DNA from: Myroides odoratus DSM 2801
GTDB taxonomy: Bacteria > Bacteroidota > Bacteroidia > Flavobacteriales > Flavobacteriaceae
Assembly (NCBI RefSeq): GCF_000243275.1
Contig: NZ_CM001437.1
Coordinates: 2,959,750-3,023,749, forward strand
Direction of reading: 5' to 3'
DNA length: 64,000 bases
Within the stretch, counting starts at the first letter, position 1; each line of letters opens with the position of its first letter. The notes under the pieces were generated by a model. The model was not told where the DNA came from. It saw only the letters and a list, made by a program, of their open reading frames with translations, and ran no database searches. Shown piece by piece: positions 18,800 through 40,551 of the stretch. A program made the translations under genes and the position numbers.

Positions 18800-18864
18800 G
18801 TTGAGTTTTTTTTTGTTATCGTATAAAAATACGCAGATTAGCTGTATTTATATTGCGAATTAAC

Positions 18865-22893: not shown

Positions 22894-22912
22894 AAAGGAC
22901 CTGATCAAATAG

Positions 22913-22950: not shown

Positions 22951-22964
22951 GTTGACTGTATTTT

Positions 22965-23684
22965 TTAATTGTGAATTCGGATAGAAGCACGTACAAGCGC
23001 CATAGCTGCGATTTTATTTAGGGGAATGTCTTTATCCTGGTGATGTTGATTCTGGCTCACTAATCGCACATAAGCTTCTCCTTTTTCTGATTTCTGAAGA
23101 AACTTAATCGTTTTGTAAGTGGAATGATCGTCAATATAGATGGATAAGATGTAAATCTCACCAAAGAAAATATTGTTGATATCAACATCCACTTTCTTAA
23201 AAGCAACAATATCACCTGCTTTTAATAGAGGGTACATCGAATCTCCTGTGGCATAGAGTGCTCCATCAACACTTGGAAGATTGGGAACACTTAAGTAATC
23301 TACAATAAACTCATCGTCAAAATCTCCGTTGGATTTTGGCAATAACCCCATGGTTGCCATAGAATTAAATAGAGGGATTTTCTGAAAGTCTTTGATGGGA
23401 TCCGCTGTTTTTCGGAAAGATACAGTGGGTTCCGCAATGAGGTCGTCTGCTTGACCATTATTCTCTTTTAGCATTTGACCCTCACCTGTGATTAGCCATT
23501 CTAAATTTAAATCACTATAAGTCGCGATTATTTTCGCTACAAAAATATCAGAAACGGCAGAATTTAATTTATCTGCGTCTAAAAACCCTCGTTTTATAGC
23601 GGTGCTTCTCAAGAATTCACTAATACTAATTCCTTTGTAATCAATATATTGTAGTATTCTTTCCTTTGTTGTTACTATATTCAT
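22965..23684 (-). CDS. CI/LexA-like repressor with S24 peptidase domain
   Basis: A 239-residue transcription regulator. The N-terminal part (1-75) looks like the helix-turn-helix of Bacteroidota prophage repressors, ending in 'DLNLEWLITGEGQML'. The C-terminal S24 domain has the nucleophile Ser149 in 'YATGDSMYPLLKAGDIV' and a candidate Lys194 in 'TIKFL'. In LexA and CI such domains cut themselves when RecA is activated by DNA damage. The usual Ala-Gly cleavage pair is not seen; 'SMATMG' (109-113) lies where it would be expected. The gene is divergent from the small rightward genes and probably controls the tail locus. Confidence 0.85.
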   Translation of the reverse strand: MNIVTTKERILQYIDYKGISISEFLRSTAIKRGFLDADKLNSAVSDIFVAKIIATYSDLNLEWLITGEGQMLKENNGQADDLIAEPTVSFRKTADPIKDFQKIPLFNSMATMGLLPKSNGDFDDEFIVDYLSVPNLPSVDGALYATGDSMYPLLKAGDIVAFKKVDVDINNIFFGEIYILSIYIDDHSTYKTIKFLQKSEKGEAYVRLVSQNQHHQDKDIPLNKIAAMALVRASIRIHN

Positions 23685-23686
23685 CG

Positions 23687-23694
23687 CAAAATTA
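23687..23694 (-). promoter_or_regulatory. -7 box of the repressor gene
   Basis: The minus-strand sequence TAATTTTG matches TAnnTTTG exactly and ends only 2 nt before the repressor ATG, which suggests a very short or leaderless transcript. Confidence 0.5.
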
Positions 23695-23695
23695 T

Positions 23696-23725
23696 TTGTT
23701 TTTTACTAAAATTGTCGCATATTTG
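23696..23725 (+). promoter_or_regulatory. rightward promoter of the regulatory region
   Basis: TTG at 23696-23698, a 19-nt spacer and CATATTTG at 23718-23725 (7 of 8 to TAnnTTTG). It faces away from the repressor and lies next to the operator palindrome. Confidence 0.45.
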
Positions 23726-23737
23726 TCTTGTACAAGA
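23726..23737. promoter_or_regulatory. candidate operator palindrome
   Basis: TCTTGTACAAGA is a perfect 12-bp palindrome placed directly after the rightward -7 box, over the expected transcription start. It is a good candidate repressor site. A second palindrome, TTTGCGAT-ttat-ATCGCAAA (23879-23898), repeats the ATCGCAAAAT sequence found at the repressor start (23683-23692). Confidence 0.55.
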
Positions 23738-23764
23738 AGATCAAACCTAAAAGCGAGTAAATAT

Positions 23765-23938
23765 ATGGAAAAAATCAACACCACAATGCATTTTAACGAA
23801 GAATTTCGTTCAGCATCTACGAAAAATGACACGATTAGAACCTCTTTGATGCGAAAATATAGGTGCTTTTTAGTTGAATTTGCGATTTATATCGCAAAAT
23901 ATATCAATATTCCATTCCATCTAACACAACGAAGATGA
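23765..23938 (+). CDS. small protein of the tailocin control region
   Basis: A 57-residue basic protein, unrecognised. It starts at the first good ATG after the rightward promoter and its TGA overlaps the next ATG (ATGA, 23935-23938), which supports real translation. It has a hydrophobic middle ('CFLVEFAIYIAKYINIPF') that could be a membrane helix or the core of a small fold. A palindrome (23879-23898) lies inside it. It could be a Cro-like or accessory factor, but no helix-turn-helix is clear. Confidence 0.4.
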   Translation: MEKINTTMHFNEEFRSASTKNDTIRTSLMRKYRCFLVEFAIYIAKYINIPFHLTQRR

Positions 23939-24105
23939 CAGCTAGCCAACTCACACAGAAACTAAGGGAATTAGAAGAATGGCTCAAATACAACGGCAGC
24001 CATCCTAACTACACCCTTATTTTACAAGACAAACAGAAATTAGAAAAACAATTAAAAACACAACAAGATGAATCAAAATCTACAGCGAGAAATGGAGCTT
24101 TATGA
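23935..24105 (+). CDS. small coiled-coil-like protein
   Basis: A 56-residue hydrophilic protein beginning MTASQLTQKLRELEEWLKY and containing 'LILQDKQKLEKQLKTQQDE', which suggests two helices forming a hairpin. It starts in the stop codon of the gene before it and overlaps the next by 38 nt. Such short overlapping genes are typical beside prophage repressors. No function can be assigned. Confidence 0.45.
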   Translation: MTASQLTQKLRELEEWLKYNGSHPNYTLILQDKQKLEKQLKTQQDESKSTARNGAL

Positions 24106-24268
24106 GGTTTTAAAAGCCACAGCTAACACCGGATACTTTACACCAGGTGAACGTATCGTAATCAATCAAGAAAGAGGATACTTATTGAGTATGGGATCAG
24201 AGGAAGAATTACGCCCTTATCAGGTGAATGAAGCAATTGAAGAAAAAATACAGGCACTCAAAAGATAA
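24068..24268 (+). CDS. small protein of the tailocin control region
   Basis: A 66-residue protein, unrecognised, with a helical N-terminus ('LQREMELYEVLKATAN'), a glycine-proline turn ('YFTPGERIVINQERGY') and a helical C-terminus. It overlaps the preceding small gene by 38 nt in another frame. The codon pattern and balanced composition make it credible. After it comes a 263-nt gap with only AT- and purine-rich sequence. Confidence 0.55.
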   Translation: MNQNLQREMELYEVLKATANTGYFTPGERIVINQERGYLLSMGSEEELRPYQVNEAIEEKIQALKR

Positions 24269-24531
24269 AGAGTGAAAGGAAAATGTTTTGATTGATTTGT
24301 CTCGATGTTAATCTAGGAGATAAAAAGCAAGAGAGAAAGAAGCAGAGCAGGAAGTAATAGGTTATTTAATTTTTTGAGGCGTAAGAAAATAAAAAATTAA
24401 AAGGAAAAGAAGGAGAAGAACTGTAGGATTCATGTTGGAGTGTGTCGAGTTGTACAGTTGGAAAGTAAAAATGTTTAATGGGTATAAAAACACAATGAAA
24501 AGTGTTTGATACTGAAAATGATTTTGGTTGT

Positions 24532-24765
24532 ATGAAGTCACAACAATTAGGACGTACATTGAATAAACTACGTCGATACCAACTTATATTAGATTTGTAT
24601 AATGAGCATAAGACGCCTGATATCCCCGTGAGTGTGGTATGGCGTAAATATATATATCCTGTTTACCCTATTTCTCGAACCACATTATATGAGGTTCTAG
24701 GAACAGCAGTACACAAAGAATTAATGCGGGTAGAAGAGGAATGTAAACAATTGAATTTGTTGTAA
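24532..24765 (+). CDS. possible DNA-binding regulator of the tail locus
   Basis: A 77-residue basic protein starting MKSQQLGRTLNKLRRYQLIL. Its middle, 'VSVVWRKYIYPVYPISRTTLYEVLG', resembles the second and third helices of a helix-turn-helix ('ISRTTLYEVL' as recognition helix). It lies between the repressor region and the tail genes and is followed by an exceptionally strong terminator. By analogy with PrtN of Pseudomonas pyocins it could be the activator or antiterminator of the tail operon; this is inference from position. An upstream in-frame ATG at 24502 is less likely. Confidence 0.55.
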   Translation: MKSQQLGRTLNKLRRYQLILDLYNEHKTPDIPVSVVWRKYIYPVYPISRTTLYEVLGTAVHKELMRVEEECKQLNLL

Positions 24766-24808
24766 GGATTAGAAAGAATCAGCTTGCTGATTGTAAAAAT
24801 AAAGACGT

Positions 24809-24874
24809 AAAAAAGAGAAGAATTTCTTTTGTTACTAATGGTAGTAGCAAAAGAAATTCTTCTCTTTTTTTTTT
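24809..24874 (+). terminator. very strong intrinsic terminator between control and tail regions
   Basis: Two 29-nt arms (24809-24837 and 24842-24870) pair with one G-U and no mismatch, with loop ATGG and a run of ten T residues. It separates the control genes from the lysis and tail genes. Confidence 0.92.
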
Positions 24875-25362
24875 ATGTCTTTTTTTAAGTGAGTAAAAGA
24901 AAGTCAGCCCGTTTCTATGTCGTTATTTCTTAGAGGAAATACTTTCTTTTTTTGATTGCTTTTGTGCTTTGAATAGGAGAGAATTGTAGGGAGATTGAAC
25001 ACTATTGTTTTGCAATCGGACACTTGTGTTTGGATGCCAAACAACGAATTGAATACCTACCCAAAATGCCGCAATTTTGTTCTCGAGATGATAAGGAAAT
25101 AGGTGCGGTATACACCAAATAAGCGTGAAGATAAATACGTAATCCAATTGAAATAACTAGAAGATATCATGCTTGGATAAACACCAAGTACTAGGAAGTA
25201 AAAACGGAGTTGTGCTTTTAATCCATGGATTTTAAACAAAGTAAAAGTACAATAAAAAAAGAATCAAAACGCTGTATGAAGGTTTTCGAATTCATGACAA
25301 GAAAATCTAGTGTACCTCGCACTGTTTTTTAAAATCATCTCACTGATAATAACAGTTCATGT
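24875..25362 (+). promoter_or_regulatory. 488-nt untranslated leader of the tail operon
   Basis: No credible gene is present. I found no exact TAnnTTTG box. An inverted repeat TGTTTGG-atg-CCAAACA lies at 25027-25043, and a weaker CTTGG/CCAAG pair near 25173-25186. The late promoter of the tail genes must lie here, or transcription must enter through the terminator before it. Confidence 0.4.
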
Positions 25363-25713
25363 ATGAATGAGACATTTATTGTAGCAGTTGTTGGTTTGGT
25401 TTCTTCTCTTGCCACTTGGTGGGCGACTCGAAAAAAGAAAAAAGTAGAAGTGCAAGCTTCGGAATTGGAAAATGTAGAGAAGTCACTGAAATATTATAGA
25501 GAATATGTAGATGATTTAGGGAATAAGTTGAAGGAAGCAACAGCCGAATTATACAATACCTCTCATTTACACCGAGAAGCTATTGACGAGCTAAATACAG
25601 CAAGGCTAGAGATTAAAAATTTAGAGCAAAGGCTCGAGATTTTAGCAAAGCAAAATAGGGAGTTGATAGCCGAATTGAGAAAGTATAAACAGTTAAATGG
25701 AAAGCGAGAATGA
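25363..25713 (+). CDS. membrane-anchored coiled-coil protein, possible holin-like lysis protein
   Basis: A 116-residue protein with one N-terminal membrane helix (residues 5-21, 'FIVAVVGLVSSLATWW'), a basic stop-transfer RKKKKVE, and a coiled coil from about 32 to 110. It is the first gene of the lysis-tail unit and its stop overlaps the endolysin start (ATGA, 25710-25713). In phage lysis cassettes this place is often held by a holin. The endolysin lacks a signal peptide and therefore needs a holin. The assignment is from position and topology; no family is recognised. Confidence 0.6.
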   Translation: MNETFIVAVVGLVSSLATWWATRKKKKVEVQASELENVEKSLKYYREYVDDLGNKLKEATAELYNTSHLHREAIDELNTARLEIKNLEQRLEILAKQNRELIAELRKYKQLNGKRE

Positions 25714-26168
25714 CAGGATCCAAGCAATTAATCGTACAGGCAAAAAGTCAAGTAAAAGTTCAAGAGTGGCCCTTGAAGAATAACAAAGGCCCGGGAGTGA
25801 AAAAGTATTTAAATAGTGTGGGCCTCGGGGAGGGATATGCTTGGTGTATGGCTTTCGTTTACTGGTGTGTACAAGAAGTTTGTCAAGATTACGGTGTGTC
25901 AAATTCCCTTAAAAAGACAGGAGGCGTTTTGGATCAATGGAACTCACGCGAAAAGCTTCGCGTGACTACTCCTCAACCAGGCGATGTATTTATTATGGAT
26001 TTCGGAAGAGGAATGGGACATACAGGAATTGTGGTAGAGGTAATTGGGGATTCAATCCGAACAATTGAAGGAAATACAAATGATGAGGCCAGTCGAGAAG
26101 GGTATATCGTGGCAGAAAAGACAAGAAAAATTAGTTCAATCAACAAAGGGTTTATCCGACCTTTTTAA
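25710..26168 (+). CDS. CHAP-domain endolysin (TIGR02594-like)
   Basis: A 152-residue cysteine peptidase/amidase that should cut peptidoglycan cross-bridges or stems. Catalytic residues visible: Cys46 in 'YAWCMAFVYWC', His104 in 'GMGHTGIVVEV', and Glu120/Asn122 in 'IEGNTN'. The N-terminal 'QEWPLKNNKGPGVKKYLN' is typical of TIGR02594 proteins of phages. It has no signal peptide, so release depends on a holin. It is flanked by a membrane protein and a spanin-like lipoprotein, a complete lysis cassette. Confidence 0.85.
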   Translation: MTGSKQLIVQAKSQVKVQEWPLKNNKGPGVKKYLNSVGLGEGYAWCMAFVYWCVQEVCQDYGVSNSLKKTGGVLDQWNSREKLRVTTPQPGDVFIMDFGRGMGHTGIVVEVIGDSIRTIEGNTNDEASREGYIVAEKTRKISSINKGFIRPF

Positions 26169-26182
26169 AGAATTGTAAATCC

Positions 26183-26692
26183 ATGAAAAAGAGTAAACGA
26201 AATCTGTTTGTGGTGAGTGTAGCGATGCTTTCTATTGGAGTTTCCAGTTGTTCTAGCAACAAGAAAGTCATCAGTCTCCAACCTACATCCACAGAAAAAG
26301 TAACACGAACAGTTGAAGAAGTAAAAAGGGACACGCTATGGCAAGTAGAAGCAGATCAAAGTCAATATGTAGCGGAACTTGCGATACAAGGCAATAAAAT
26401 CGTTGTGAAAGATGCGAATATCAAGCGCAGTAAACAAAAGGTGTTGCAACCACCAGCCGTCCAAATCCATGGAAATAAGTTGATTGTCGATTGCCATGTG
26501 GAAGCTCAACGACTATTTTTTGAATGGAAAGACCAATACATTCAAGAAAAAACGGTGAAAGAAGTCAGAATTCCCGTGCCTGTACCGCTCGAATTATCTT
26601 GGTGGCAATCTACTCAACTGTGGTTAGGTCGAATCTTTCTGTTGTTGCTTGCAATAGGTAGCGGAGGCTATATTTTCCGATCAAGAAGGTAA
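26183..26692 (+). CDS. lipoprotein with C-terminal membrane helix, unimolecular-spanin-like
   Basis: A 169-residue protein with a lipoprotein signal (lipobox VSSC, Cys23, followed by Ser-Ser, which suggests outer-membrane sorting in other systems), a periplasmic middle of beta strands and a helix, and a C-terminal membrane helix at about 146-164 ('LWLGRIFLLLLAIGSGGYIF') ending in basic RSRR. A lipid in the outer membrane and a helix in the inner membrane joined in one chain is the design of u-spanins such as phage T1 gp11, which fuse the two membranes at lysis. It follows the endolysin gene after 14 nt. Confidence 0.65.
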   Translation: MKKSKRNLFVVSVAMLSIGVSSCSSNKKVISLQPTSTEKVTRTVEEVKRDTLWQVEADQSQYVAELAIQGNKIVVKDANIKRSKQKVLQPPAVQIHGNKLIVDCHVEAQRLFFEWKDQYIQEKTVKEVRIPVPVPLELSWWQSTQLWLGRIFLLLLAIGSGGYIFRSRR

Positions 26693-26695
26693 GCA

Positions 26696-26818
26696 ATGGC
26701 ATTGTGGATAAAAAGGAAAAAGTTGAAAAAGAGAAACGAGCATGAACAGTCACCAGGGGCTGTTAAAAACAGAAAGGAGTGCTACAATACTTCTAACGAA
26801 TTGAATTGTAGTGAATAG
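26696..26818 (+). CDS. possible 40-residue basic protein
   Basis: An open frame starting with ATG 3 nt after the spanin-like stop. It encodes a Lys/Arg-rich N-terminus (MALWIKRKKLKKRNEHE) and two Cys residues. It may be a real small protein or chance; no family is recognised. It fills most of the gap before the sheath gene. Confidence 0.25.
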   Translation: MALWIKRKKLKKRNEHEQSPGAVKNRKECYNTSNELNCSE

Positions 26819-26843
26819 AAAGAAATGAGAAAAAATTAAAGTT

Positions 26844-28049
26844 ATGTTACCAAAGATTAATATACAATTTCAAAATGGAAACCTAGGACAGGTGGTTTCT
26901 TCTCCCGATGGAGTTTTCGGATTATTAGCTTCTGCAGTTGCTGTAGCGGATACATTCGAATTAAATAAAGCTTATCAGTTAAAATCAATGCGCGATTTAG
27001 TAGCGTTGGGGATTTTAGCAGATTCGACCAATAGTAAATTGTACAAAACAGTAAAAGAATTCTACGCAGAAGCTGGTGATGGGGCAGAGTTATGGTTGAT
27101 GGGAATTGACAAGAAAACGAAGCTATCTGATTGGTTTGATGAAAAAGAAGGTATTGTTTTAGCAGAAACCTTATTGAATGCAGCGCAAGGAAAGTTGAGA
27201 GGATTATTTACAGCTTATGATCCAGATGCGACGGTTGAAATTACAGTGGCAAAAGGATTGGATAAAGAGGTGGCATTGGCCATGTCTTTGGCACAACAAG
27301 TAGCTGAAAACTATACCCAACGCGTATATGCTCCTTTCTTTGTTTTACTTGAGGGATATGCCTTTGACGGGGATAAAGTAGCTTTAGAAAACTTAACTGA
27401 GAAAAACTTTAACCGTATTGCTGTGTTGCTTGGAGATACTGAGAAAGACAGTAAAGGGGCTGCCACAGGTGTTGTTATGGGAAGATTGTCTGCTGTTGGC
27501 GTTCAGGTAAATATGGGACGTGTGCGCGATGGTGCATTAAAACCGTTAACGCTATTTATTGGGGATACAGCTGTAGATCAGTATGACGTAGAAGCGTTGA
27601 ACGACAAAGGCTATAATTCTTTCCGTTTCCACCAAGGAAAAGCAGGGTACTTTATGATTGATGATGTGTTGGCAACGAGTGAAACTGATGACTATCACAA
27701 TATTGCAAGAAGAAGAACCATCGACAAAGCGTTTCGTTTAGTGTATATCGCAATGCTAGATTTCTTATTAGACAATAGCAATGTAATGCCCGATGGAACA
27801 ATCAGCGCTATTTATGCTAAAACAATTGAAAATGCAGTAGAATCGACGATTAACAACGCGATGACAGCTGCTGGAGAATTGAGCGTAGATGCAGCAAACC
27901 CAAATGACAGAGGGGTGATTTGTAAAGTGGATTTAAAACACAATGTTGTCAGTACAGGGCAAGTAAAACTGACTGTACAAGTTCGCCCATTAGGGTATAA
28001 TCGTTTCATCAATGTAGAATTGGGTTTTGTACCCGTAAATCAAAAGTAA
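26844..28049 (+). CDS. contractile tail sheath protein (DUF2586-like)
   Basis: A 401-residue structural protein, the outer contractile tube of the particle. The N-terminus 'PKINIQFQNGNLGQVVSSPDG' and 'VFGLLASAVAV' match DUF2586-type sheath proteins of Bacteroidota phages. The C-terminal third has 'RRRTIDKAFRLVYIAMLDFL' and the ending strand pair 'GQVKLTVQVRPLGYNRFINVEL', which is the shared sheath C-terminal domain that links subunits. It is followed after 1 nt by the tube gene, as in P2-like and tailocin loci. Confidence 0.88.
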   Translation: MLPKINIQFQNGNLGQVVSSPDGVFGLLASAVAVADTFELNKAYQLKSMRDLVALGILADSTNSKLYKTVKEFYAEAGDGAELWLMGIDKKTKLSDWFDEKEGIVLAETLLNAAQGKLRGLFTAYDPDATVEITVAKGLDKEVALAMSLAQQVAENYTQRVYAPFFVLLEGYAFDGDKVALENLTEKNFNRIAVLLGDTEKDSKGAATGVVMGRLSAVGVQVNMGRVRDGALKPLTLFIGDTAVDQYDVEALNDKGYNSFRFHQGKAGYFMIDDVLATSETDDYHNIARRRTIDKAFRLVYIAMLDFLLDNSNVMPDGTISAIYAKTIENAVESTINNAMTAAGELSVDAANPNDRGVICKVDLKHNVVSTGQVKLTVQVRPLGYNRFINVELGFVPVNQK

Positions 28050-28050
28050 T

Positions 28051-28470
28051 ATGGTAGTTGTAGGAGGCCGTGAGTATGAATGGGGTGATATTTCACTCGT
28101 ATTAGGTAATCGTGAAGTAGTAGGGATTACAGGAATTAAGTATGGAGAAAAAGTAGAACGCGAAGCAAGCTATGGTAAAGGGCGCTATGCGCATTCCATT
28201 CAAAGTGGAAATATCGCTGTCGATGGGGAGATTACTTTACTGCAAAGCGAGGTAATTGCCTTACAGAAAGCAGGCGTAAATCAAAGCTTATTATCCTTGA
28301 ATTTGGATGCAATCGTGAATTATGGGAATCCATCTGAAGGTGAAGCAATGCGTACGGATCGAATTATCGGTATTCGATTTACAGAAGATGTAAGAGAGTG
28401 GAAACAAGGCGATAAACGCGCTGAAATTACATTGCCATTTTTAGCTTTACGCGTAGTAAGTGGAGTATAA
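28051..28470 (+). CDS. tail tube protein
   Basis: A 139-residue protein of mostly beta structure ('EYEWGDISLVLGNREVVGIT', 'IQSGNIAVDGEITLLQSEV', 'IIGIRFTEDVREWKQGDKRA'). Length, position directly after the sheath gene and the two-layer beta pattern fit the inner tail tube (gp19/Hcp-like fold). It starts 1 nt after the sheath stop and is followed by an internal terminator, so that the two most abundant proteins would be made in excess. The family name is not certain. Confidence 0.75.
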   Translation: MVVVGGREYEWGDISLVLGNREVVGITGIKYGEKVEREASYGKGRYAHSIQSGNIAVDGEITLLQSEVIALQKAGVNQSLLSLNLDAIVNYGNPSEGEAMRTDRIIGIRFTEDVREWKQGDKRAEITLPFLALRVVSGV

Positions 28471-28491
28471 AATAGAATAAAAATCAATTGA

Positions 28492-28523
28492 AAAAGCCTC
28501 CGTAAAGAGGAGGCTTTTCTTTT
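28492..28523 (+). terminator. internal (attenuating) terminator after the tube gene
   Basis: AAAAGCCTCC and GGAGGCTTTT form a perfect 10-bp stem with a 7-nt loop, followed by CTTTT. The operon continues beyond it. Confidence 0.75.
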
Positions 28524-28539
28524 AAAAAAATCACAGAAA

Positions 28540-28854
28540 ATGAATAAAGTTTTTATTGGAGAAGTAACTCCAGAGCAAGTGGAAATGTTTAAACAGCAAC
28601 ATAAGGTTGTACATAAATTAAAATCAGATAGTGGTGTGTATGCTATTGTTCGCAGACCCACGATGAAAGAAATCGAATACGGTCAGACGATGTTGGCACA
28701 AAATAAATTCATTTCTTATAACAAACATCTCTTTGATACTTGTTTGTTAGCACTTAATGAAGATATCCGAGAAGATGAGTATAAAGTCAATGCTTTTGCT
28801 TCTCAGATGATGATGGTTGTTGAAATTGAGCGTGTTGAGGTGGAAAAGCTTTAG
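28540..28854 (+). CDS. tail assembly chaperone (gpG-like)
   Basis: A 104-residue mixed helix/strand protein between the tube and tape-measure genes, the usual place of the tail assembly chaperone that coats the tape measure during assembly. 'LKSDSGVYAIVRRPTMKEIE' and 'FDTCLLALNEDIREDEYKVN' are seen. The end of the gene has GGAAAAG (28842-28848), and the -1 frame is open from 28839 into the next gene, which suggests a frameshifted G-GT fusion as in lambda and P2. Family not recognised by sequence. Confidence 0.7.
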   Translation: MNKVFIGEVTPEQVEMFKQQHKVVHKLKSDSGVYAIVRRPTMKEIEYGQTMLAQNKFISYNKHLFDTCLLALNEDIREDEYKVNAFASQMMMVVEIERVEVEKL

Positions 28855-28877
28855 GAGAAGCACTATTTGAGCGCCAA

Positions 28878-29099
28878 ATGACTTCTCCTACTTCTTCTTC
28901 TGGAAAAGGAAAACAACTAACCCAGGAAGAATATTACAAGGCGTTAGATCAATGGATCAGTAGTATTCGGAAGATACATGGAGCTATTCGATATTATTTG
29001 AAACTAGAACCTTACGATATGGAATTATGGGAATGGGCGCATCGATTTAGAGAGTTGGAATGGATAAGAAAAGAAGAATCAAAAGTAGGACATGGCTAA
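28878..29099 (+). CDS. second tail assembly chaperone part (GT-like)
   Basis: A 73-residue protein with a Ser/Thr-rich start (MTSPTSSSGKGK) and a helical, Trp-rich remainder ('ALDQWISSIRKIHGAIRYYL', 'MELWEWAHRFRELEWIRKEE'). It lies in the -1 frame to the preceding gene, and its frame is open upstream to 28839, past the end of that gene. It may be made alone from its ATG or as a fusion by -1 frameshifting, or both. Its stop overlaps the tape-measure start by 8 nt. Confidence 0.65.
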   Translation: MTSPTSSSGKGKQLTQEEYYKALDQWISSIRKIHGAIRYYLKLEPYDMELWEWAHRFRELEWIRKEESKVGHG

Positions 29100-31023: not shown

Positions 31024-31024
31024 G

Positions 31025-31621: not shown

Positions 31622-31625
31622 TAAG

Positions 31626-33089: not shown

Positions 33090-33105
33090 TGTAAACGGAT
33101 AAAGT

Positions 33106-33656: not shown

Positions 33657-33915
33657 TCAATCCCTATTCGATATTACCCTACAAGCGTATGGTAATATCA
33701 GTGCCTTATTCGATGTTGCTTTGGCAAATAATATCAGTTGTACGGATCTTTTACCGGTAGGAACCAACTTGGAACTCCCCCCTAGTGAGGGAACAACTAA
33801 AAGTGTGTTGGATTACTATAGGAGAGAGCAGATTGAAATAGCAACAGTAAATGGGGTAAGTCGAGAATTACCTTTAGAGGAATTCCTCCTAAAAGGGATA
33901 ACTCCAGTACTATAA
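33637..33915 (+). CDS. LysM-like tail protein (gpX-like)
   Basis: A 92-residue protein with 'NQSLFDITLQAYGNISALFD', 'VALANNISCTDLLPVGTNLE', a LysM-type pattern like P2 gpX and other hub proteins that hold the sheath initiator to the tube. The start at 33637 overlaps the gp25-like gene by 20 nt; an earlier in-frame ATG at 33574 would overlap it far more and is unlikely. Confidence 0.75.
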   Translation: MQTIKNNQSLFDITLQAYGNISALFDVALANNISCTDLLPVGTNLELPPSEGTTKSVLDYYRREQIEIATVNGVSRELPLEEFLLKGITPVL

Positions 33916-33925
33916 TAAATGAACT

Positions 33926-34813
33926 ATGGCTAGAGAAATTAGAGAAATAAAAAAACAGATTACCGATACCTATATCGCTAATGCTGTGGTAAAAGAAACC
34001 TACAAATTAGACCCTGTAAAAACGTTTGAGCAGCAATTTAGCAAAGTGTCGATAGAAAACCTATTGTTTGAAACGATTGCATTTGCCCTTTGGTTTTTTG
34101 AAAAGTTGTTGGATCAAAACAAAGTAGAAATCAATGAAGAAATTGCAAAATCGCGTATTCACAATCAAAAATGGTACCGAGAAAAAGCGTTAGATTTTAT
34201 GTTTGGGCAATCCTTGACTGAATCTGATCAGTATGATATAACGGGGCTAACAGAAAAGGAAATTCAGCAAGCGAAAATTATTGCCAACGCTGCACCTGTT
34301 AAAATGCAGGGGTATTTGAGAATGAAAGTAGTCAAGCGAAAAAAGGAAGAGTTACATCCGCTATCCCCTGCCGAATTAAAAGCATTTGAAAGCTATATGA
34401 ATAGAGTGACAGACGCAGGAACCTATGTTGTACCGACCACGAATGCAGCAGATGATTTGAAACTTCATTTGGATGTGTACTACAATGAAATGATTTTGGC
34501 ACAAGATGGCTCTCGTTTAGATGGTACACTTCAACACCCTGTGATTGACGTCATTCACGACTATTTAAAGAGTTTGCGTTTCAATGGTGCTTTTGTAGAA
34601 ACCAAATTGATGGATGAAATCCAACAGATTGAAGGAGTTTCTATGGTAAAGATTGTAGCTGCTTGGTCAAAATATGGTTTCTATGATTATGAATCCACTC
34701 AAAACCCTAATGTAGGATTGATTAATGAAGTGCGAACTGCCGATGCGGGTTATATGAAACTCGATGAAACCAATACAGTAATTACCTATAAACCTTTTAT
34801 GGAGTATGAATAA
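33926..34813 (+). CDS. baseplate J-like wedge protein
   Basis: A 295-residue protein in the place of P2 gpJ. It begins with a helical 'REIREIKKQITDTYIANAVV' and contains 'GTLQHPVIDVIHDYLKSLRF' and 'KLMDEIQQIEGVSMVKIVAA', the segments common to J-like wedges ('V...I..YL......G..V...L...I..I.GV'). It forms the iris of the baseplate with the next protein. Its stop overlaps the next start by 8 nt. Confidence 0.75.
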   Translation: MAREIREIKKQITDTYIANAVVKETYKLDPVKTFEQQFSKVSIENLLFETIAFALWFFEKLLDQNKVEINEEIAKSRIHNQKWYREKALDFMFGQSLTESDQYDITGLTEKEIQQAKIIANAAPVKMQGYLRMKVVKRKKEELHPLSPAELKAFESYMNRVTDAGTYVVPTTNAADDLKLHLDVYYNEMILAQDGSRLDGTLQHPVIDVIHDYLKSLRFNGAFVETKLMDEIQQIEGVSMVKIVAAWSKYGFYDYESTQNPNVGLINEVRTADAGYMKLDETNTVITYKPFMEYE

Positions 34814-35288
34814 TGTTTATTACCTGAATTGGAATCGATTAGTTACCTTTTTTATTCCAAAAGTATTGCGAACCCCCTTGCTATTGGCCTTGATTCACAG
34901 TGCTGTTTTACCGCTAAAAGTTAACTATAGTGCCTTTCTTAGTTTTAAGAAAAATGCGGAATACAAAGTCAAACACAACGGACAGGTAGTTTATTTAGAG
35001 AAAATGCTCAACGATAAATTCGACAAGAATTTAAGGCGGATTCAAGTAGAAAATAGCAAACCCAATGTTCCGCTTTGGTTATATCATGTGGAAGATGGTA
35101 AACCTATGTTTACCTATCACATAGCGGATGGCAAGCCTGTGCATTTTTTTAGCAAAGGTGCTCATTACAATGCATTTGATTTCACAGTGTCGATTCCAAA
35201 TGATTTAATTGACTTTGAATTTCAAATACAGGCACAAATTAATTACTACAAATTGTTTTCCAAAAACTATAAAATCAAAACAGAATGA
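34806..35288 (+). CDS. baseplate wedge protein, gpI-like
   Basis: A 160-residue protein with the early segment 'PKVLRTPLLLALIHSAVLPL', which resembles the 'LP..LR......L..A...P' start of Bacteroidota tail proteins placed after J. By gene order it is the partner of the J-like wedge and carries the fibres. Its stop overlaps the following start (ATGA). Assignment is mostly from position. Confidence 0.6.
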   Translation: MNNVYYLNWNRLVTFFIPKVLRTPLLLALIHSAVLPLKVNYSAFLSFKKNAEYKVKHNGQVVYLEKMLNDKFDKNLRRIQVENSKPNVPLWLYHVEDGKPMFTYHIADGKPVHFFSKGAHYNAFDFTVSIPNDLIDFEFQIQAQINYYKLFSKNYKIKTE

Positions 35289-35965
35289 AAAAATTAATAT
35301 TCTCGGGTACAGGGTATCCTGTATCCATCAAAACACTGGAGTTCCTTCAAGATAACACGCTGAATGCAGTTTCCGCCTTTGCTAAATCAAAAGTAAACTA
35401 TGAAGTAGTTTGGGGAATGAATCTCAATTTGACTAAAACACAACTAAGTGATGGGGCATTTGTTTTTAATGGAGAAATTATCCCTTTTGTAGGAGGTCTA
35501 ATCGGAATTAATTCGACACTTACAATAGATGAAATTATTGATAATGAGTCTTTTAATACGAATCCTAATTCCGTTACAGCAGTAGAATCTTTGCCAGCTT
35601 ATAGTGTGAAAACGGCGCGAATAGGAACAGGAGGATTACATTCTTTCCCTATAGCTGCTTTAAAGCGATATAAACAACAAATCGTCATTGATTCAGGTGT
35701 TACAACAAATACAGCTGTTAACGCATATGATGGAGAAAACCACGGTGTAGTTCATTGTGCACATATAAAATTGACAGAAGAGGAATTAGCAAATTCGATG
35801 GTTATCTATACGTTGACTAGAGCTCATCAAAATACATCTTATATGGTGGGAGCTAAACATAATCTTTTGCACCGCAGTTCAGATCATTTTTTAATTAATA
35901 TAACGATGCCATTAAATGGTAATGAAATGCCTATGGTATACTGGCAAATTGTAAGGTTGAAATAG
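35285..35965 (+). CDS. fibre or baseplate-distal protein
   Basis: A 226-residue protein, unrecognised. The N-terminus 'IFSGTGYPVSIKTLEFLQDN' and 'FVFNGEIIPFVGGLIGINST' recall the N-terminal part of phage proteins that begin the fibre network; the C-terminal half is a beta-rich domain with several His residues ('GVVHCAHIKLTEEELANSMV', 'HNLLHRSSDHFLINITMP'), perhaps a jelly-roll or a receptor-binding domain. It could be the first of the fibre set. Confidence 0.55.
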   Translation: MKKLIFSGTGYPVSIKTLEFLQDNTLNAVSAFAKSKVNYEVVWGMNLNLTKTQLSDGAFVFNGEIIPFVGGLIGINSTLTIDEIIDNESFNTNPNSVTAVESLPAYSVKTARIGTGGLHSFPIAALKRYKQQIVIDSGVTTNTAVNAYDGENHGVVHCAHIKLTEEELANSMVIYTLTRAHQNTSYMVGAKHNLLHRSSDHFLINITMPLNGNEMPMVYWQIVRLK

Positions 35966-35966
35966 C

Positions 35967-36482
35967 ATGGAAAAGCTAAGAATAGAAGAAAAGTTTGACA
36001 ATGCGGTCAAGCAGAAGCTGATTGACAAAGAATTAATTGCCTCAGAAGAAACCATTGGTTCTGCCGAGTTTAACGCTTTAGTGGCAAAGACAAATGAACT
36101 TGTTACCATTCTTAATAATACCAAGACGGTTCCTCAAGAGATTGAGGAAATTATAGGAACAGATGCACTTCATCTATTCATTGATAGTTCCGCAGGGGAG
36201 AGTATATCCGCTGATTATATGCAAACCACTTTAACAGTAACAGTAGAACGGTATTTTAATAATTACAGTGCAGAGGTTGTTTCTTGGCAATGGTTTCGCG
36301 AATCGGGGGATACATTAGAAGATCGAGATTCTGATGCTATTTGGAGCCAAGGAAAAACGGAGCCTGTACTTCATTTAACAGCTGAGGATTTTACAGCAAA
36401 TATTCACACAAGACCTATTGTGTTTATTTGTCAGGCAATGGTGCACAATCAACGTTTAACAGCACAAACAAATATAGGATAA
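35967..36482 (+). CDS. fibre-region protein with Ig-like segment
   Basis: A 171-residue protein. The N-terminal half is helical ('IEEKFDNAVKQKLIDKELIA'), as in oligomerisation or attachment parts; the C-terminal half has the Ig-like pattern 'SWQWFRESGDTLEDRDSDAI' and 'IVFICQAMVHNQRL' (W-x-W-F and a Cys strand). The same type of segment occurs in the next fibre genes. It overlaps the next gene in TAATG. Confidence 0.55.
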   Translation: MEKLRIEEKFDNAVKQKLIDKELIASEETIGSAEFNALVAKTNELVTILNNTKTVPQEIEEIIGTDALHLFIDSSAGESISADYMQTTLTVTVERYFNNYSAEVVSWQWFRESGDTLEDRDSDAIWSQGKTEPVLHLTAEDFTANIHTRPIVFICQAMVHNQRLTAQTNIG

Positions 36483-38032
36483 TGAAAAACGGAGTTTTAA
36501 ATATAAAAGTAGATTACAAACCTTTAAACGCCTACAAAAATGTAGTTGTGAAAAGTGGTAGTACCAGACAAAATTACAATGCCAATACGCGTTATTTTGA
36601 ACCAGATCGACGCATTGATCCTTATGTGGTATTGATTGAATGTGGAGTAAATGATACCCATAAATTGGCAGAAGGATTGGTCAATGAACAACTAACTGAT
36701 GTAAGTTGGAAAATTTCTTCTCCTAAAGGGTATACCGAAATTATAGCCACAGACAAAGAGTTTAGAATCGGAACAGGAGCAGATAAAGGGATGATTACCA
36801 TTTTTAAAAATGTCAGCGATTTGGAGCCAGTAACGCTTTTGTTCACAGCGCGATTTATGGAGCCCACCACCAAGCGCGTGGTTAATTTTCAAGAATCGTT
36901 TACCCTGATTACCTTGCCAATTGCAGAAGCTCCTCTTTTGGTGGAAACAGCAGCTCCTGTAGGATATAATCTCTTTCCTACTCAAAACAATCAAGGACTT
37001 ATTTGTCAGGCTGATTTAGTACAAGGCAGTAGTAAAAAACCAACAGCTTACTGGTGGTACAAAGGAACTACCTTACTCACAGAAGCCAACGGGTACAAAG
37101 GAACGGCAAAAAGCCAACTTTTTGTACCTTCAACAGCGTTAACCACAAAAGGAGATGTGTTTAAATGTGAAATTGCCGATTGTTCTGCCTATTTTAATCA
37201 ATTGGTTGACCAAAAGGTCGAAGGAGATGCTCAAGTCAAGGAATGGAGAGATCTGTATCAATTGAATGGAGAGAATTATTATACGAGATCAAATAATTGG
37301 ATTAAAGCATGGATTACAGCTACTCCAGGAATAGCATCTGCTTCCGATTCAGCTTTGTTTGCAATTCCTATACCAAAAGGAGGAGGAAGTTGGGTATTAA
37401 GCGGAGATGTTTCAGGAACTACTATTTTAAGAAGTGGCTATATTAAAACAAACGTAATTATTGGTGCAGAAGTTTTTAATTCTAATCGTGATACCATTTT
37501 ACCTCGAGTAATTGATGTTTCTAATGATGCGACTTATATTGTTGTTCAAGTTGTTCAGTCATATGCTGATAAGTTTAAAGAATCATTGAAGGTAGAAAAA
37601 GGAAATAAAGCCACGCCTTGGTCACCATCCAAAGAAGATTTACAAACGGTATTGGACGATAAAACCAAGCACTATAAAACGACGACTTCACTTCCAGAAA
37701 ACTACCGTCCCAATCCCAAACCAGCCAAATTATACACCGCAGATTTTATGCTCATGAAGAAGCTCCCTGCCTATACAGCTGATGTTTTGTATCCTACAAC
37801 GGTGTCACCTGAATCGACCACAGTACAAATCGAAATGGTGTTAAATACCAATGATGGCGTTATCAAACAGCCAGAGCAATTTTTCTCTGTGGGATGGTTG
37901 AAGCAAGCTAATGGAACCTTTAAGTATAAAGGATTCAAAGTAAAAATTGCCATTGCGGATATCAAAGCATTAAATGATGCCAATAAACAATTGGATTATG
38001 AACTTAGAGAAGATTTAACCCTAAAAGCGTAA
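36482..38032 (+). CDS. tail fibre protein with Ig-like domain
   Basis: A 516-residue protein. It starts in the stop of the preceding gene (TAATG), with N-terminal strands 'VLNIKVDYKPLNAYKNVVVK', an Ig-like domain near 175-230 ('PTAYWWYKGTTLLTEANGYK', 'GDVFKCEIADCSAYF'), a carbohydrate-binding-like region ('GGSWVLSGDVSGTTILRSGY' and 'NKATPWSPSKEDLQ', which recalls lectin-like modules in phage fibres) and a C-terminal domain. It probably links baseplate and receptor-binding fibre. A longer frame from 36428 is unlikely. Confidence 0.65.
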   Translation: MKNGVLNIKVDYKPLNAYKNVVVKSGSTRQNYNANTRYFEPDRRIDPYVVLIECGVNDTHKLAEGLVNEQLTDVSWKISSPKGYTEIIATDKEFRIGTGADKGMITIFKNVSDLEPVTLLFTARFMEPTTKRVVNFQESFTLITLPIAEAPLLVETAAPVGYNLFPTQNNQGLICQADLVQGSSKKPTAYWWYKGTTLLTEANGYKGTAKSQLFVPSTALTTKGDVFKCEIADCSAYFNQLVDQKVEGDAQVKEWRDLYQLNGENYYTRSNNWIKAWITATPGIASASDSALFAIPIPKGGGSWVLSGDVSGTTILRSGYIKTNVIIGAEVFNSNRDTILPRVIDVSNDATYIVVQVVQSYADKFKESLKVEKGNKATPWSPSKEDLQTVLDDKTKHYKTTTSLPENYRPNPKPAKLYTADFMLMKKLPAYTADVLYPTTVSPESTTVQIEMVLNTNDGVIKQPEQFFSVGWLKQANGTFKYKGFKVKIAIADIKALNDANKQLDYELREDLTLKA

Positions 38033-38035
38033 GCA

Positions 38036-38239
38036 ATGAAATACATAATAATGAAGGAGTCGATAGCGGTTGAAAAGGGAGTTATTCCTGAAGATCACTA
38101 TTTTCCAACCCAAGATAATCAAGTGATTTTTAAAAAGGATATGTTGACTATCTACAGTCAAAAGGAACATCACATTGATTTTGAATATGAAGAATTAGAA
38201 ACCGCGCAAGCATTAAATAAAATTGACACATGGAAATAG
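38036..38239 (+). CDS. small protein among fibre genes
   Basis: A 67-residue acidic protein, unrecognised ('MKESIAVEKGVIPEDHYFP', 'QVIFKKDMLTIYSQKEHHID'). It begins 3 nt after one fibre gene and overlaps the start of the next by 10 nt, so it is surely translated with them. It may be a fibre chaperone or a collar piece; this is inference. Confidence 0.6.
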   Translation: MKYIIMKESIAVEKGVIPEDHYFPTQDNQVIFKKDMLTIYSQKEHHIDFEYEELETAQALNKIDTWK

Positions 38240-39270
38240 TAAGAGGATCGAGAACGATTAAATTAGGAAAAAAGGGAGATACCATTTCGAGTTCGTTGAT
38301 TGCTGATAAGCCCTTAGTAGCAAAGTATCAAAATGGTGTGGCTGTAGGAAGTTGGGCAAATGCTGCTGAAAACAGAATGGTGTATGCGCAAGTACTTACT
38401 TCTTTGACGAATACTCCCCTTTCAACGACACAGTTAACAGCTGTGGTTTGGAAGTTCAATGGACAAGTGATTGCTAATACAGATGCGCGATTTGAAAAAA
38501 CAACCTATTCAATTGGTTCCATCCAGGTGCCTGCTTTAAAGATTAAAGCGGATATTATGAATGCCATTGACACAACGAGTTCCATTGAATTTAATGCCAA
38601 TGCTTATACAGGAGGATATACCACGGCAATTGCAGCGTTAATTAATGTGGCTAAAGAAAATATTTCAGCCAATACCTATAGTGCTTATATTTTAGATGCC
38701 AACGGGCGTGGTGCAACTATTACATCCACTTATCCAACAGTTACTTTAAAAGCGATGTTAGAAAAAGGAGGTACGGTTTTAACTGCGGGAATTACATATC
38801 AATGGTATAAATCAACCCTAGATCAAGCACAGGACTTAGCCAATGATAGTATAGCAGATAATCGTATGTTACTCCCAGGAAAAACCGCTCAAACGCTAGC
38901 ATTAACAGCGGCGGATATTCAAACGTATGACACGTATTTGGTGGATATTTTTGAAGGTGGGCAGTTGGTAAAAACAGCGATGATATCTGTGCGTGATGAA
39001 ACGGATTCACTGGAGTTGATGTACAATGTAGAAGGCATTGAAGATGATTTACAACCAGGTGGATCCGTTAAATACACACCTAAGGTAGTTTATAGAGGAA
39101 CAACCACACCTGCTTCAGGTACTTGGACGTATAAGTATCAAAAGATTAAGCTCAATGGGACGAATATCGGCGCCCAAACAACAGGGGCTTCCGTAACAAT
39201 TCGATATACAGATATTGAAGCAGCAGCGGTAAGCGAGATTTGCGTGTTATTTGAGGCACAAGAAAATTAA
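38230..39270 (+). CDS. tail fibre protein with Ig-like repeats
   Basis: A 346-residue beta-rich protein. The first 15 residues, MEIVRGSRTIKLGKK, recur in the next gene (MGQVHGSRTIRLRER), so this is a shared attachment peptide. It then has about three Ig-like segments, the clearest at about 160-260 ('TAGITYQWYKSTLDQAQDLA', 'YDTYLVDIFEGGQLVKTAMI') and at the C-terminus ('GTWTYKYQKIKLNGTNIGAQ'). It is probably a fibre shaft. Confidence 0.65.
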   Translation: MEIVRGSRTIKLGKKGDTISSSLIADKPLVAKYQNGVAVGSWANAAENRMVYAQVLTSLTNTPLSTTQLTAVVWKFNGQVIANTDARFEKTTYSIGSIQVPALKIKADIMNAIDTTSSIEFNANAYTGGYTTAIAALINVAKENISANTYSAYILDANGRGATITSTYPTVTLKAMLEKGGTVLTAGITYQWYKSTLDQAQDLANDSIADNRMLLPGKTAQTLALTAADIQTYDTYLVDIFEGGQLVKTAMISVRDETDSLELMYNVEGIEDDLQPGGSVKYTPKVVYRGTTTPASGTWTYKYQKIKLNGTNIGAQTTGASVTIRYTDIEAAAVSEICVLFEAQEN

Positions 39271-39276
39271 AAAACT

Positions 39277-40422
39277 ATGGGACAAGTTCACGGATCTAGA
39301 ACAATAAGGCTAAGGGAGCGCATCAATTCGGTGCGCATCCAAGCTACAGGAACACAGTTTCAAGGGAATACCCCTGCGAACCTTACGCTTAAGGCAGTAC
39401 CTTATAATTTTACAGCAGTAAGTTATGCTTGGTACAAAGGAACCGGAACAACCGCAGTGGGGACAAATCAAAACCTCATTGTGGCCAATACGCAGGTTGC
39501 TGCCGTAGAAACGTATCGGGTTGTGGTAAAAAATAATCAAAATCAAGAATATGAAGATGTAATCTCTATTTCTAAGGTAATAGATGGAGCTCAAGGGCGT
39601 CCAGGACAATTACCGATTCAACGCGAATGGAAAGTTGGAGAGGTGTATCGCAATAATGACGATGTCGTTGATTATATCTACCATCGTATTACGGATAGTT
39701 GGTGGAAATTAAAGGGAGGATACAACAATGTAACAGCGCAAGAGAATCCAACCAACGAGTTTATTCGTTTAAATGCTATGGAACAATTGGCAGTAAATAT
39801 ATTAATCGCTGAAAATGCAAATATTGCAGGGTTTGTTTTTAAAGATCAAAAAATGATTTCTCAATCTCCTTCCTTATCTAATCCTAATCTTAGTCTTGAT
39901 GGGGTTAATGGAGAATTGAAGGTGATGAAAGGACAGGTAGGAGAATTTACCATTAATGAAGGACTTGAATACAATAAACAAGGACTAAGGTTTGTCAGTA
40001 ATATGCTAAAAACGTATCAAAAATTTTTTCGATTTGATAGAAATGGACTCAAATTAATTAATAATGATTGGTACTCAGGTGCTTTTTGTGGGCAAAATGA
40101 GAATGGTTTCTCATATTGTGCTGGTGGAGATACCCATAGTGTAAAATTTGAAATAGAAACAGGAGGAGTTGATTATTATTTAAAAATATTTAGTGAAGGA
40201 AAATATAGACAAAATGAATATAAAGGAGCTTTATGGATTCAAGCAGTTTCTTCAACAATAGATGCTATTTTAATTGAAAAAGGCGGAGTAACATTGAAAA
40301 AAGGGGATATTAATATTTATGATGGTAATTATAGAGCAAATGGTAAATTTGGAGCTACAGGAACGTTAACTATTGGAAGTGTTCAGGTTCAGGTTAATAA
40401 AGGAATAATCACAGGTTGGTAA
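39277..40422 (+). CDS. tail fibre tip, putative receptor-binding protein
   Basis: A 381-residue protein, last gene of the operon. In order: the shared attachment peptide MGQVHGSRTIRLRER; an Ig-like domain ('AVSYAWYKGTGTTAVGTNQN'); a collagen-like DGAQGRPGQLP; a Trp-rich carbohydrate-binding-like module ('QREWKVGEVYRNNDDVVDYI'); a helical stretch 'AMEQLAVNILIAENANIAGF'; and a beta-rich C-terminal domain. The part from about 39990 to 40420 looks more AT-rich than the rest, which suggests exchange of the tip domain. No fibre chaperone gene follows. Confidence 0.65.
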   Translation: MGQVHGSRTIRLRERINSVRIQATGTQFQGNTPANLTLKAVPYNFTAVSYAWYKGTGTTAVGTNQNLIVANTQVAAVETYRVVVKNNQNQEYEDVISISKVIDGAQGRPGQLPIQREWKVGEVYRNNDDVVDYIYHRITDSWWKLKGGYNNVTAQENPTNEFIRLNAMEQLAVNILIAENANIAGFVFKDQKMISQSPSLSNPNLSLDGVNGELKVMKGQVGEFTINEGLEYNKQGLRFVSNMLKTYQKFFRFDRNGLKLINNDWYSGAFCGQNENGFSYCAGGDTHSVKFEIETGGVDYYLKIFSEGKYRQNEYKGALWIQAVSSTIDAILIEKGGVTLKKGDINIYDGNYRANGKFGATGTLTIGSVQVQVNKGIITGW

Positions 40423-40446
40423 GAACTGGTAAATGATAAAAAATAG

Positions 40447-40478
40447 AAAAGCACATAAATTAACTTATGTGCTTTTTT
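40447..40478 (+). terminator. terminator of the tail operon
   Basis: AAAAGCACATAA pairs perfectly with TTATGTGCTTTT, followed by more T residues. It marks the right limit of the tail locus. Confidence 0.85.
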
Positions 40479-40551
40479 ATTCTATTGTATAATAAATACA
40501 CCTAATATTTTCCTAAAAATAATCGCCCAACAGAAAACAACACCAAAATTT

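Follow-up and report, generated by a model that had tools for sequence, protein, structure and literature searches.

A headless contractile tail locus in the chromosome of Myroides odoratus DSM 2801 is, with a probability of roughly 0.85, an R-type tailocin that derives from a Mu-like, Winoviridae-related phage and has been retained for its tail. It lies between hisS and the host gene o180 in the 64,000-nucleotide stretch of DNA that we analysed (the window), and contains an S24 repressor, a pair of small regulator-like genes, a holin/CHAP/spanin-like lysis cassette and the genes of a contractile tail. The genes, order and coordinates given for it in the earlier note on this DNA agreed with ours, but the right border had to be corrected: a host gene that is conserved occupies positions 40552-41094, which leaves about 22900 to 40550 for the element. 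The two strong terminators described there were both recovered as hairpins with 17-pair stems (no strand assigned), one between hisS and the repressor (22913-22949) and one at the right (40442-40481); terminator-like sites in the region numbered 21 against 11.6 expected. As had also been stated for the flanks, no tRNA was found in the window, and nothing in it reached an Rfam gathering score. The GC content of the locus resembles that of its flanks, and positions 22965-40422 correspond exactly to a virus fragment already in IMG/VR (record 2522572176_000004). The label 'flavobacterium' holds at family level, the genus being Myroides.

The closest full prophage found was G421 (IMGVR_UViG_2838958572), which is Mu-like and complete and comes from a different Myroides; its sheath is identical to P0007, which one source names M. 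odoratimimus. The two share gene order, with identities of 57% for the repressor, 88% for the holin-like protein in the equivalent position, 83% for the CHAP endolysin, 73% for the sheath and 78% for the tube. Unlike the locus, G421 has MuA/MuB-like, packaging, portal and capsid genes, as well as one additional ORF that separates spanin from sheath. Left of its holin, three of 40 ORFs matched the window (E 1e-3), namely the repressor and two regulator-like genes, none of them a head gene. Because G421 combines the same gene order with head genes, it shows the phage origin of the locus. Tail gene order is also shared with the Winoviridae phages lotta8-1 and FPSV-S1 of Flavobacterium (sheath about 26%, J-like protein 39-40%, I-like protein 33-37%), which differ from the locus in being complete, with terminase, portal, protease and capsid genes. 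Homology and synteny further connected the locus to phages carrying MuA/MuB-like, Portal_Mu and Phage_Mu_F genes. On our best reading, the parent would have been a Mu-like, Winoviridae-related temperate myophage, since reduced to a tail locus.

The repressor (22965-23684, reverse strand; all other genes lie on the forward strand) is CI-like and of the S24 family (Peptidase_S24, 6e-10; PHROG repressor, 2e-19). Its presumed cleavage site is ATMG, as in the complete phage, and AMAG in one relative. Downstream, o66 (24068-24268) encodes a small protein of the regulator region that the locus retains from the phage (63% over 54 aa to an early gene of G421), with no family in Pfam or PHROG. The second small protein, o87 (24502-24765; 76% over 74 aa to G421; 95 homologues), is all-helical and a candidate late activator, possibly PrtN-like in role. 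Its AF2 model (pLDDT 88) has helices at 5-36, 43-51, 59-67 and 70-86; fold comparison of this model gave no specific match, and o87 has no Pfam family. A strong terminator-like hairpin (24816-24863, forward strand; 20-pair stem and T run) lies 3' of the regulators, directly following o87, its sequence largely kept across four alleles. The best-conserved part of the gap between o87 and holin in four alleles is an apparently non-coding block (24989-25101, forward strand) that matched nothing in Rfam and is a candidate for controlling the lysis-tail operon.

The lysis cassette proposed earlier was borne out strongly by family for the CHAP gene, and by layout and synteny for holin and spanin. It comprises a holin-like small membrane/coiled-coil protein (25363-25713) with one N-terminal hydrophobic stretch and weak PHROG lysis matches, a CHAP-domain endolysin (25710-26168; PF05257, 7e-16; PHROG endolysin, 1e-12) and a spanin-like protein (26183-26692) that is 67% identical to its G421 counterpart and weakly matches PHROG Rz (0.03). 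The last protein has a lipobox-like sequence at its N terminus and a hydrophobic helix at its C terminus, which is the layout of a u-spanin.

In the contractile tail module, family matches were strong for sheath, tape measure, DUF6046 protein and hub, and synteny contributed to the naming of spike, gp25, J and I. The sheath (26844-28049; DUF2586, 8e-60; PHROG tail sheath, 1e-37) is followed by the tube (28051-28470; PHROG tail protein, 1e-11; 27% to lotta8-1 tail protein gp37), which also matches the first part of a longer PHROG family named 'major head protein' (5e-28). The first ORF of the chaperone region (28540-28854; phrog_19076, 8e-9, no function given; 87% to G421) is called a tail assembly chaperone by its place. 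The second, o73 (28878-29099), is conserved in relatives; in Myroides sp. 1354 and the IMG/VR record L160 its frame is open but has no ATG, GTG or TTG at our start position. The 643-aa tape measure protein (29092-31023; TMP_3, 4e-14; PHROG TMP, 2e-28) precedes a baseplate/hub-associated DUF6046 protein (31010-31621; PF19512, 4e-28; PHROG baseplate hub, 3e-9) and the baseplate hub (31563-32597; PHROG baseplate hub, 5e-59), the start of which is uncertain and overlaps the DUF6046 gene. The gpV-like spike (32598-33089; Phage_base_V, 0.17) is assigned by place, with homologues equally placed in complete phage tails, and the small baseplate-region protein o69 (33106-33315; phrog_5576, 0.001) has homologues in many syntenic tails. 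These are followed by a conserved gp25-like sheath initiator (33312-33656; GPW_gp25, 0.005) and a LysM-like baseplate protein (33574-33915; LysM, 0.18; matching lotta8-1 gp45). The family scores of gp25, spike and LysM are weak alone, each gene being rightly placed within a syntenic tail. The J-like baseplate protein (33926-34813; phrog_38413, 8e-38, no function given) and the I-like baseplate/fibre-attachment protein (34806-35288) have no Pfam family and were named by identity to gp47 (39%) and gp48 (33%) of the myophage lotta8-1. No tail terminator gene was identified, and the gp31-like gene kept by other headless lineages was unmatched in the window.

The fibre region begins with proteins of 226 aa (35285-35965; weak match to lotta8-1 'tail fiber' gp49, 1e-4) and 171 aa (35967-36482; placed here by sequence and allelic variation). 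A 534-aa fibre protein of uncertain start (36428-38032; PHROG tail protein, 7e-11) overlaps the latter ORF. It is followed by a small 67-aa protein (38036-38239), present in two of four other alleles, and a 346-aa fibre protein (38230-39270; PHROG tail protein, 5e-18). The distal fibre (39277-40422; 381 aa) is a candidate receptor-binding protein with 32 homologues, those with names being from Myroides or Flavobacterium; its fold gave PKD/Ig-like domain matches in a model that is poor as a whole (pTM 0.33).

The claim that the locus lacks head genes stood: no head, packaging or transposition gene was found there. When the proteins of relatives were compared with the window, 16 of 62 matched, all of them tail proteins, repressors or o66, and the head, connector, packaging and transposition queries gave zero matches. 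Elsewhere in the genome, head genes were searched with four queries (Portal_Mu, Terminase_6N, the TerL of a relative and, as the one capsid type, that of the closest phage), and none was found. Three of the four had positive controls, the TerL being without one in its own search: Portal_Mu matched six of seven genomes and the capsid four of eight, in neither case our own, and Terminase_6N matched six of 14 controls. The portal and capsid of this phage type were found neither in our genome nor in M. odoratus XSfan. Across the genus, 27 of the 37 sheath rows checked had a portal within 12 kb; the other 10 include those of our genome, XSfan and sp. 1354.

This headless locus also occurs at hisS in XSfan, in sp. 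1354 and in L160, which has hisS attached. Full prophages were not seen at this site; the occupied sites observed (ours and these three) are headless. Close relatives that lack the locus have no tail gene there, and the two nearest of those observed have only 212-230 bp at the site. Among DUF445 neighbourhoods from 15 genomes, two were occupied, 10 had hisS and no tail match, and three (G353, G072 and G286) were unusable because hisS was missing from the stretch. An apparent gap of 1066 bp in sp. 1354 was rejected as a joined-source artefact, the real gap being about 17.7 kb. This strain also carries a complete relative phage. The sheaths of five headless Myroides loci form one group in the tree (support 91/87). 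The right-flank genes o180 and DUF445 fail to group the occupied genomes, and DUF445 places sp. 1354 with a relative whose site is empty (0.96), so the locus may have been gained more than once.

In five alleles, the tail and lysis genes have uninterrupted reading frames. No computed dN/dS value exceeded 0.51 (outputs of 0.00 with an infinite dS were left out), and values were low also where dS was near 1; the locus is under purifying selection. Between our strain and sp. 1354, dS in the tube-gp25 block is mostly 0.09-0.16, versus 0.92 at hisS, and this block was replaced recently between the two. The fibre ends of XSfan and L159 are quite different, and fibre genes and tail blocks have been exchanged between strains.

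What was found is thus what an R-type tailocin would comprise: a contractile tail module, a repressor and lysis genes, no capsid, portal or terminase by the queries run, and a stable chromosomal locus under selection with exchangeable fibres. The packaging, capsid and transposition or integration genes of an intact temperate phage were not found. The headless hisS sites, the absence of head genes by our queries and the origin seen in G421 support the reading of the earlier note, as far as sequence can. Points against it are the ATMG motif of the repressor, the lack of a specific fold match for o87, the weak family scores of spike, gp25 and holin, the missing tail terminator gene and the right-flank genes that do not group the occupied genomes. 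Related strains and species have preserved the locus intact, so its most likely products are tail-like particles with which competing bacteria are killed. Transposition, packaging, capsid and neck genes would have disappeared from an ancestral phage, and its tail would have been retained. DNA damage may inactivate the S24 repressor, upon which o66 and/or o87 would activate the operon for lysis and tail. The tape measure would fix the length to which sheath, tube and baseplate assemble, and the producer would be lysed by the holin, the CHAP endolysin and the spanin-like protein. The fibres would then attach to a surface receptor of related strains, and sheath contraction would drive the tube through the envelope, killing without DNA. 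These steps are inferred, from the route of induction and the role of the activator to the forming of particles, the killing and the range of targets.

We considered whether the locus might be an extracellular contractile injection system (eCIS) delivering a protein effector, perhaps to eukaryotes. Contractile injection systems are abundant in Bacteroidota, according to PMC12210884, and headless contractile tails are compatible with either function. However, Pfam scans of the 25 locus proteins found no AAA+ ATPase, which an eCIS would carry, and no PAAR or toxin family, as an eCIS often has for tip or effector; the matches found in PHROG were phage proteins, and the locus has the repressor and lysis cassette of a phage, making this improbable. 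Slightly less probable still is a cryptic prophage in decay, its tail genes open by chance. Decay does occur among relatives: G395 has two IS21-like genes (named by eye) at the head-gene position and no lysis query match, and the second sheath of G262 has an open frame of only 196 codons. Against this, five alleles keep open tail and lysis frames with low dN/dS even where dS nears 1, and no head match remains, yet regulators and lysis genes are retained. Least probable of all is a tail supplier or satellite obtaining heads from a helper phage. Complete relatives occur in the genus, that of sp. 1354 included, but our genome and XSfan lack the portal and capsid of this phage type, and connector, packaging and transposition queries were unmatched in the window.

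In Flavobacteriales and related viral contigs, we give even odds that Mu-like/Winoviridae-type phages repeatedly became headless tail loci, with four or more origins and probably five, three or four of them besides that of the Myroides locus. Head, packaging and neck genes would have gone each time, and tail, lysis and control genes stayed. Some of these lineages carry a MuA/MuB-like transposase and sit at different places from one species to another, and so would be mobile, transposon-borne tailocins. Such recurrence, with transposase in some cases, makes the genes lost and kept on the way from phage to weapon countable. If confirmed, the Myroides locus would represent a Bacteroidota R-type tailocin lineage with known parent phage, insertion site and empty sites. 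Myroides includes hard-to-treat opportunists, and narrow killing particles there would interest ecologists also. In line with the earlier statement, we found no R-type tailocin of flavobacteria among the matches listed in the open-access full-text literature, which covers few subscription papers.

The locus resembles the eCIS of Algoriphagus machipongonensis in being a headless contractile apparatus of the same phylum, as described in PMC8894135. The AAA+ ATPase typical of eCIS, according to PMC8910223, is absent from the locus, a difference in gene content. With the R-type pyocins of Pseudomonas aeruginosa it shares a repressor and presumed activator, lysis genes, a headless contractile tail and variable fibres; the pyocins differ in their P2-derived tail and PrtR/PrtN regulators, according to PMC10598620 and PMC8910223. 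For o66 and o87, Pfam returned no family. In the BceTMilo tailocin of Burkholderia cenocepacia, which PMC5411513 derives from a P2-like phage (KL3) with an Ogr late regulator, phage tail, lysis and regulator genes are kept, including a CI-like repressor, and induction is RecA-dependent; the heads are gone, the tail-to-head connector gene (P2 S) is lost too, and there are few other changes. The Myroides locus likewise keeps tail, lysis and regulators including a CI-like repressor, with heads gone. It differs from BceTMilo, as described there, in its probable parent, a Mu-like/Winoviridae-type phage of Bacteroidota, and because this parent is Mu-like and not P2-like, the locus would be a separate natural experiment in the change from phage to bacteriocin.

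The genome holding the window is a single contig of 4,301,842 bases, and at the locus it is closest, among named relatives, to Myroides odoratus XSfan (sheath 92%) and Myroides sp. 1354 (sheath 90%). Positions 22965-40422 correspond precisely to one IMG/VR entry, a virus fragment, and are bounded at both ends by hairpin terminators, as the earlier note had described. The leftmost gene, on the minus strand, encodes a repressor of the S24 type. It is followed on the plus strand by two small genes, o66 and o87, by a holin-like protein, a CHAP endolysin and a spanin-like lipoprotein with a hydrophobic helix at its C-terminal end, and by the tail genes in the order sheath, tube, two chaperone-region ORFs, tape measure, DUF6046, hub, spike, o69, gp25-like, LysM-like, J-like, I-like and six fibre-region ORFs. 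The distal fibre has a near-identical protein (98%) named M. odoratus, which together with the sheath identities places the strain in the M. odoratus group of Myroides; genome G058 carries a 72% homologue of this fibre and is not among the sheath matches. Family scores were strong for sheath, tape measure, DUF6046, hub, CHAP and S24. Spike, gp25 and LysM scored weakly on their own and were accepted because their homologues keep the same order in complete phages. J and I are homologues of gp47 (39%) and gp48 (33%) of lotta8-1, a complete Winoviridae phage of Flavobacterium, and are named from this homology, gp47 and gp48 themselves being deposited under names that do not mention J or I. Holin and spanin are named from layout and from synteny with the complete phage. 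The repressor, lysis cassette and full contractile tail set of the earlier note are all present, with spike, gp25, LysM, J, I, holin and spanin recognized partly by synteny or homology.

As queries against the window we used 62 proteins from relatives, taken from lotta8-1, from the G345 locus and from Mu-like prophages in G044, G098, G089 and G053. Sixteen matched, namely tail proteins, repressors and one o66 homologue. Portal, Phage_Mu_F-like, connector, terminase, protease, capsid, transposase, MuB-like and gp31 queries found no match in the window in this search, and the claim that the locus lacks capsid, portal, terminase and protease genes held. Head genes elsewhere in the chromosome were also sought. 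Portal_Mu was absent from the whole genome, the exception among seven genomes in which the same search was otherwise positive, and so was Terminase_6N (6/14 control genomes positive). A relative's TerL had no match in the whole genome in a search run without a positive control, and the capsid of the closest phage, the sole capsid type queried, was found in four of eight genomes and was absent here and in XSfan, G281 and G058.

The sheaths of five headless Myroides loci formed one group (support 91/87) near that of a complete Mu-like prophage of another Myroides (G421, 35,172 bp in IMG/VR); the next branches beyond this group were metagenome proteins (P0003-P0006). A protein named M. odoratimimus is identical to the G421 sheath. 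This prophage carries a repressor, MuA-like and MuB-like genes and homologues of o66 (63%) and o87 (76%), together with Phage_Mu_F, a Mu-type portal, connector, terminases, protease and capsid, family names being read on other members of the lineage. Its holin (88%), CHAP (83%) and spanin (67%) resemble ours and are followed by one extra ORF, then by sheath (73%), tube (78%) and the remaining tail genes in the same order. Left of its holin, 3 of 40 ORFs (mechanical calls of at least 70 codons) matched the window at E 1e-3: the repressor, o66 and o87. Transposition, packaging, capsid and connector genes have therefore been lost, and the control genes kept.

XSfan and sp. 1354 carry the same headless locus, with hisS on one side of it and the host genes o180 (40552-41094 in the window) and DUF445 on the other, and an IMG/VR record (L160/L023) has hisS attached to it, so the proposed search of the hisS neighbourhood in relatives did recover such loci. 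Among 15 genomes compared at DUF445, two were occupied, ten had hisS and no tail match, and three had no hisS in the stretch. Spacing between hisS and o180 was 212 bp (G281) and 230 bp (G058) in the two closest genomes without the locus, and 1.5-1.7 kb in G215, G241, G319 and G180. The hisS tree of nine genomes set the three occupied genomes apart (support 0.92), which fits one gain of the locus. In the DUF445 tree sp. 1354 was joined with G281, whose site is empty (0.96), and the occupied genomes were not grouped by o180 either; because these trees disagree with that of hisS, the site may also have seen recombination nearby, a transfer or a loss.

Across the genus in the GTDB sense, 60 of 398 genomes had a sheath match. 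Among 37 sheath rows from 25 of these genomes, 27 had a portal within 12 kb and ten did not: the present locus, XSfan, sp. 1354, two G206 rows close to the ends of contigs, a fragment in G262, G395, which has an IS21-like insertion and lacks a lysis match, and G345, G408 and G201:C10, which are headless with open tail genes. The G395 element (L166, on C1) is Mu-like, has an IS21-like pair, named by eye, in place of head and lysis genes, and looks decayed. Sheath frames of 443-456 codons occurred in 14 genomes. In G006 another tail locus (L170, L038, L171) has a longer sheath, an M15 peptidase and its genes in a rearranged order; head and tape-measure queries were unmatched in the part listed.

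G345 and G408 keep MuA/MuB-like genes, an o66 homologue, a small protein at the place of o87, an amidase, a spanin-like gene and a full tail, and terminase, portal and capsid queries found no match in them; in G201:C10 the transposase is also missing. In these headless loci gp31-like and gp25-like genes remain on the minus strand, and the portal, connector and terminase that lie around or between them in complete relatives are gone. The elements of G345 (L162, L163) and G408 (L164, L165) belong to two species. The DNA they share begins just ahead of the transposase gene and runs to the fibre end, and their flanks are unlike; therefore this lineage most simply moved or was moved.

Scanning IMG/VR for the G345 sheath yielded 29 loci. 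Of these, 20 have head genes, three are undecidable and six are headless (L175, L176, L181, L182, L194, L197) even though the record includes transposition genes upstream. L175 is identical to G408 across 21 kb, and the short protease match retained in L182 may be a remnant. Another headless locus was found in G109, of another family of the order (L036, C14, about 2081-19713); it has its own repressor, unmatched head queries and host-like flanking genes by appearance (thioredoxin-like on the left, by eye). The headless state needs four changes on each of the sheath (27 rows), hub (26) and J-like (23) trees, from which the Myroides group was treed separately; well-supported branches of the J tree force only two, and the long G109 branch of the sheath tree is possibly misplaced. 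These counts provide good support for three further headless origins besides the Myroides group, and G109 would be a fourth. Distant DUF2586 sheath genes also occur on Aureibacter tunicatorum plasmids typed non-mobilizable (NZ_AP025310, NZ_AP025311).

Comparison with four other alleles gave no computed dN/dS above 0.51, and most ratios were below 0.15 even at dS near 1; the highest were in o66 (one allele), LysM-like, tape measure and fibre-region genes. Reading frames are open throughout the five alleles, L159 stopping within the fibre region, and o73 in sp. 1354 and L160 is open and lacks the usual start codon. Against sp. 1354, dS was 0.09-0.16 in the tube-to-gp25 block (o69 0.35) versus 0.92 in hisS and 1.33 in the repressor. 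L160 and XSfan share 96-98% identity in DUF6046, hub, spike and o69 and 84% in the tape measure, whereas the J and I of L160 match XSfan at 37% and 28% but ours at 98-99%. Most of the fibre end in XSfan and in L159 is unrelated to ours. This patchwork and the dS contrast therefore indicate that whole tail blocks and fibres recombine across strains and across species, with the locus itself keeping its position.

We infer regulation, particles and killing as follows. Most likely, the S24 repressor would keep the locus silent; after damage it would be removed, o66 and/or o87 would switch on the long operon, particles would assemble and the lysis cassette would break the cell open. The templates for this model are the R-pyocins, in which RecA triggers PrtR cleavage and PrtN activation (PMC10598620), and BceTMilo (PMC5411513). 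In the 600-bp gap before the holin there is a strong hairpin, and four alleles share a conserved block of some 110 bp (24989-25101), which in sp. 1354 contains repeats spaced by about 21 bp; the block is a candidate control region and may be an operator of the late operon. The o87 model has four helices (pLDDT 88), and fold comparison gave no informative match. What we take to be the repressor cleavage site reads ATMG here and in G421 versus AMAG in a relative.

A headless phage tail serving as a bacteriocin is a known kind of system. The earlier note knew of no well-described R-type tailocin from the Flavobacteriaceae, and likewise we found no report of a headless-tail bacteriocin from this family in the mainly open-access literature, including the accessible portions of PMC12961389, PMC8910223, PMC12210884, PMC10598620, PMC6391281 and PMC11577772. 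The Mu-like parent, the recurrence of headless loci and the headless forms that bear a transposase seem to be new.
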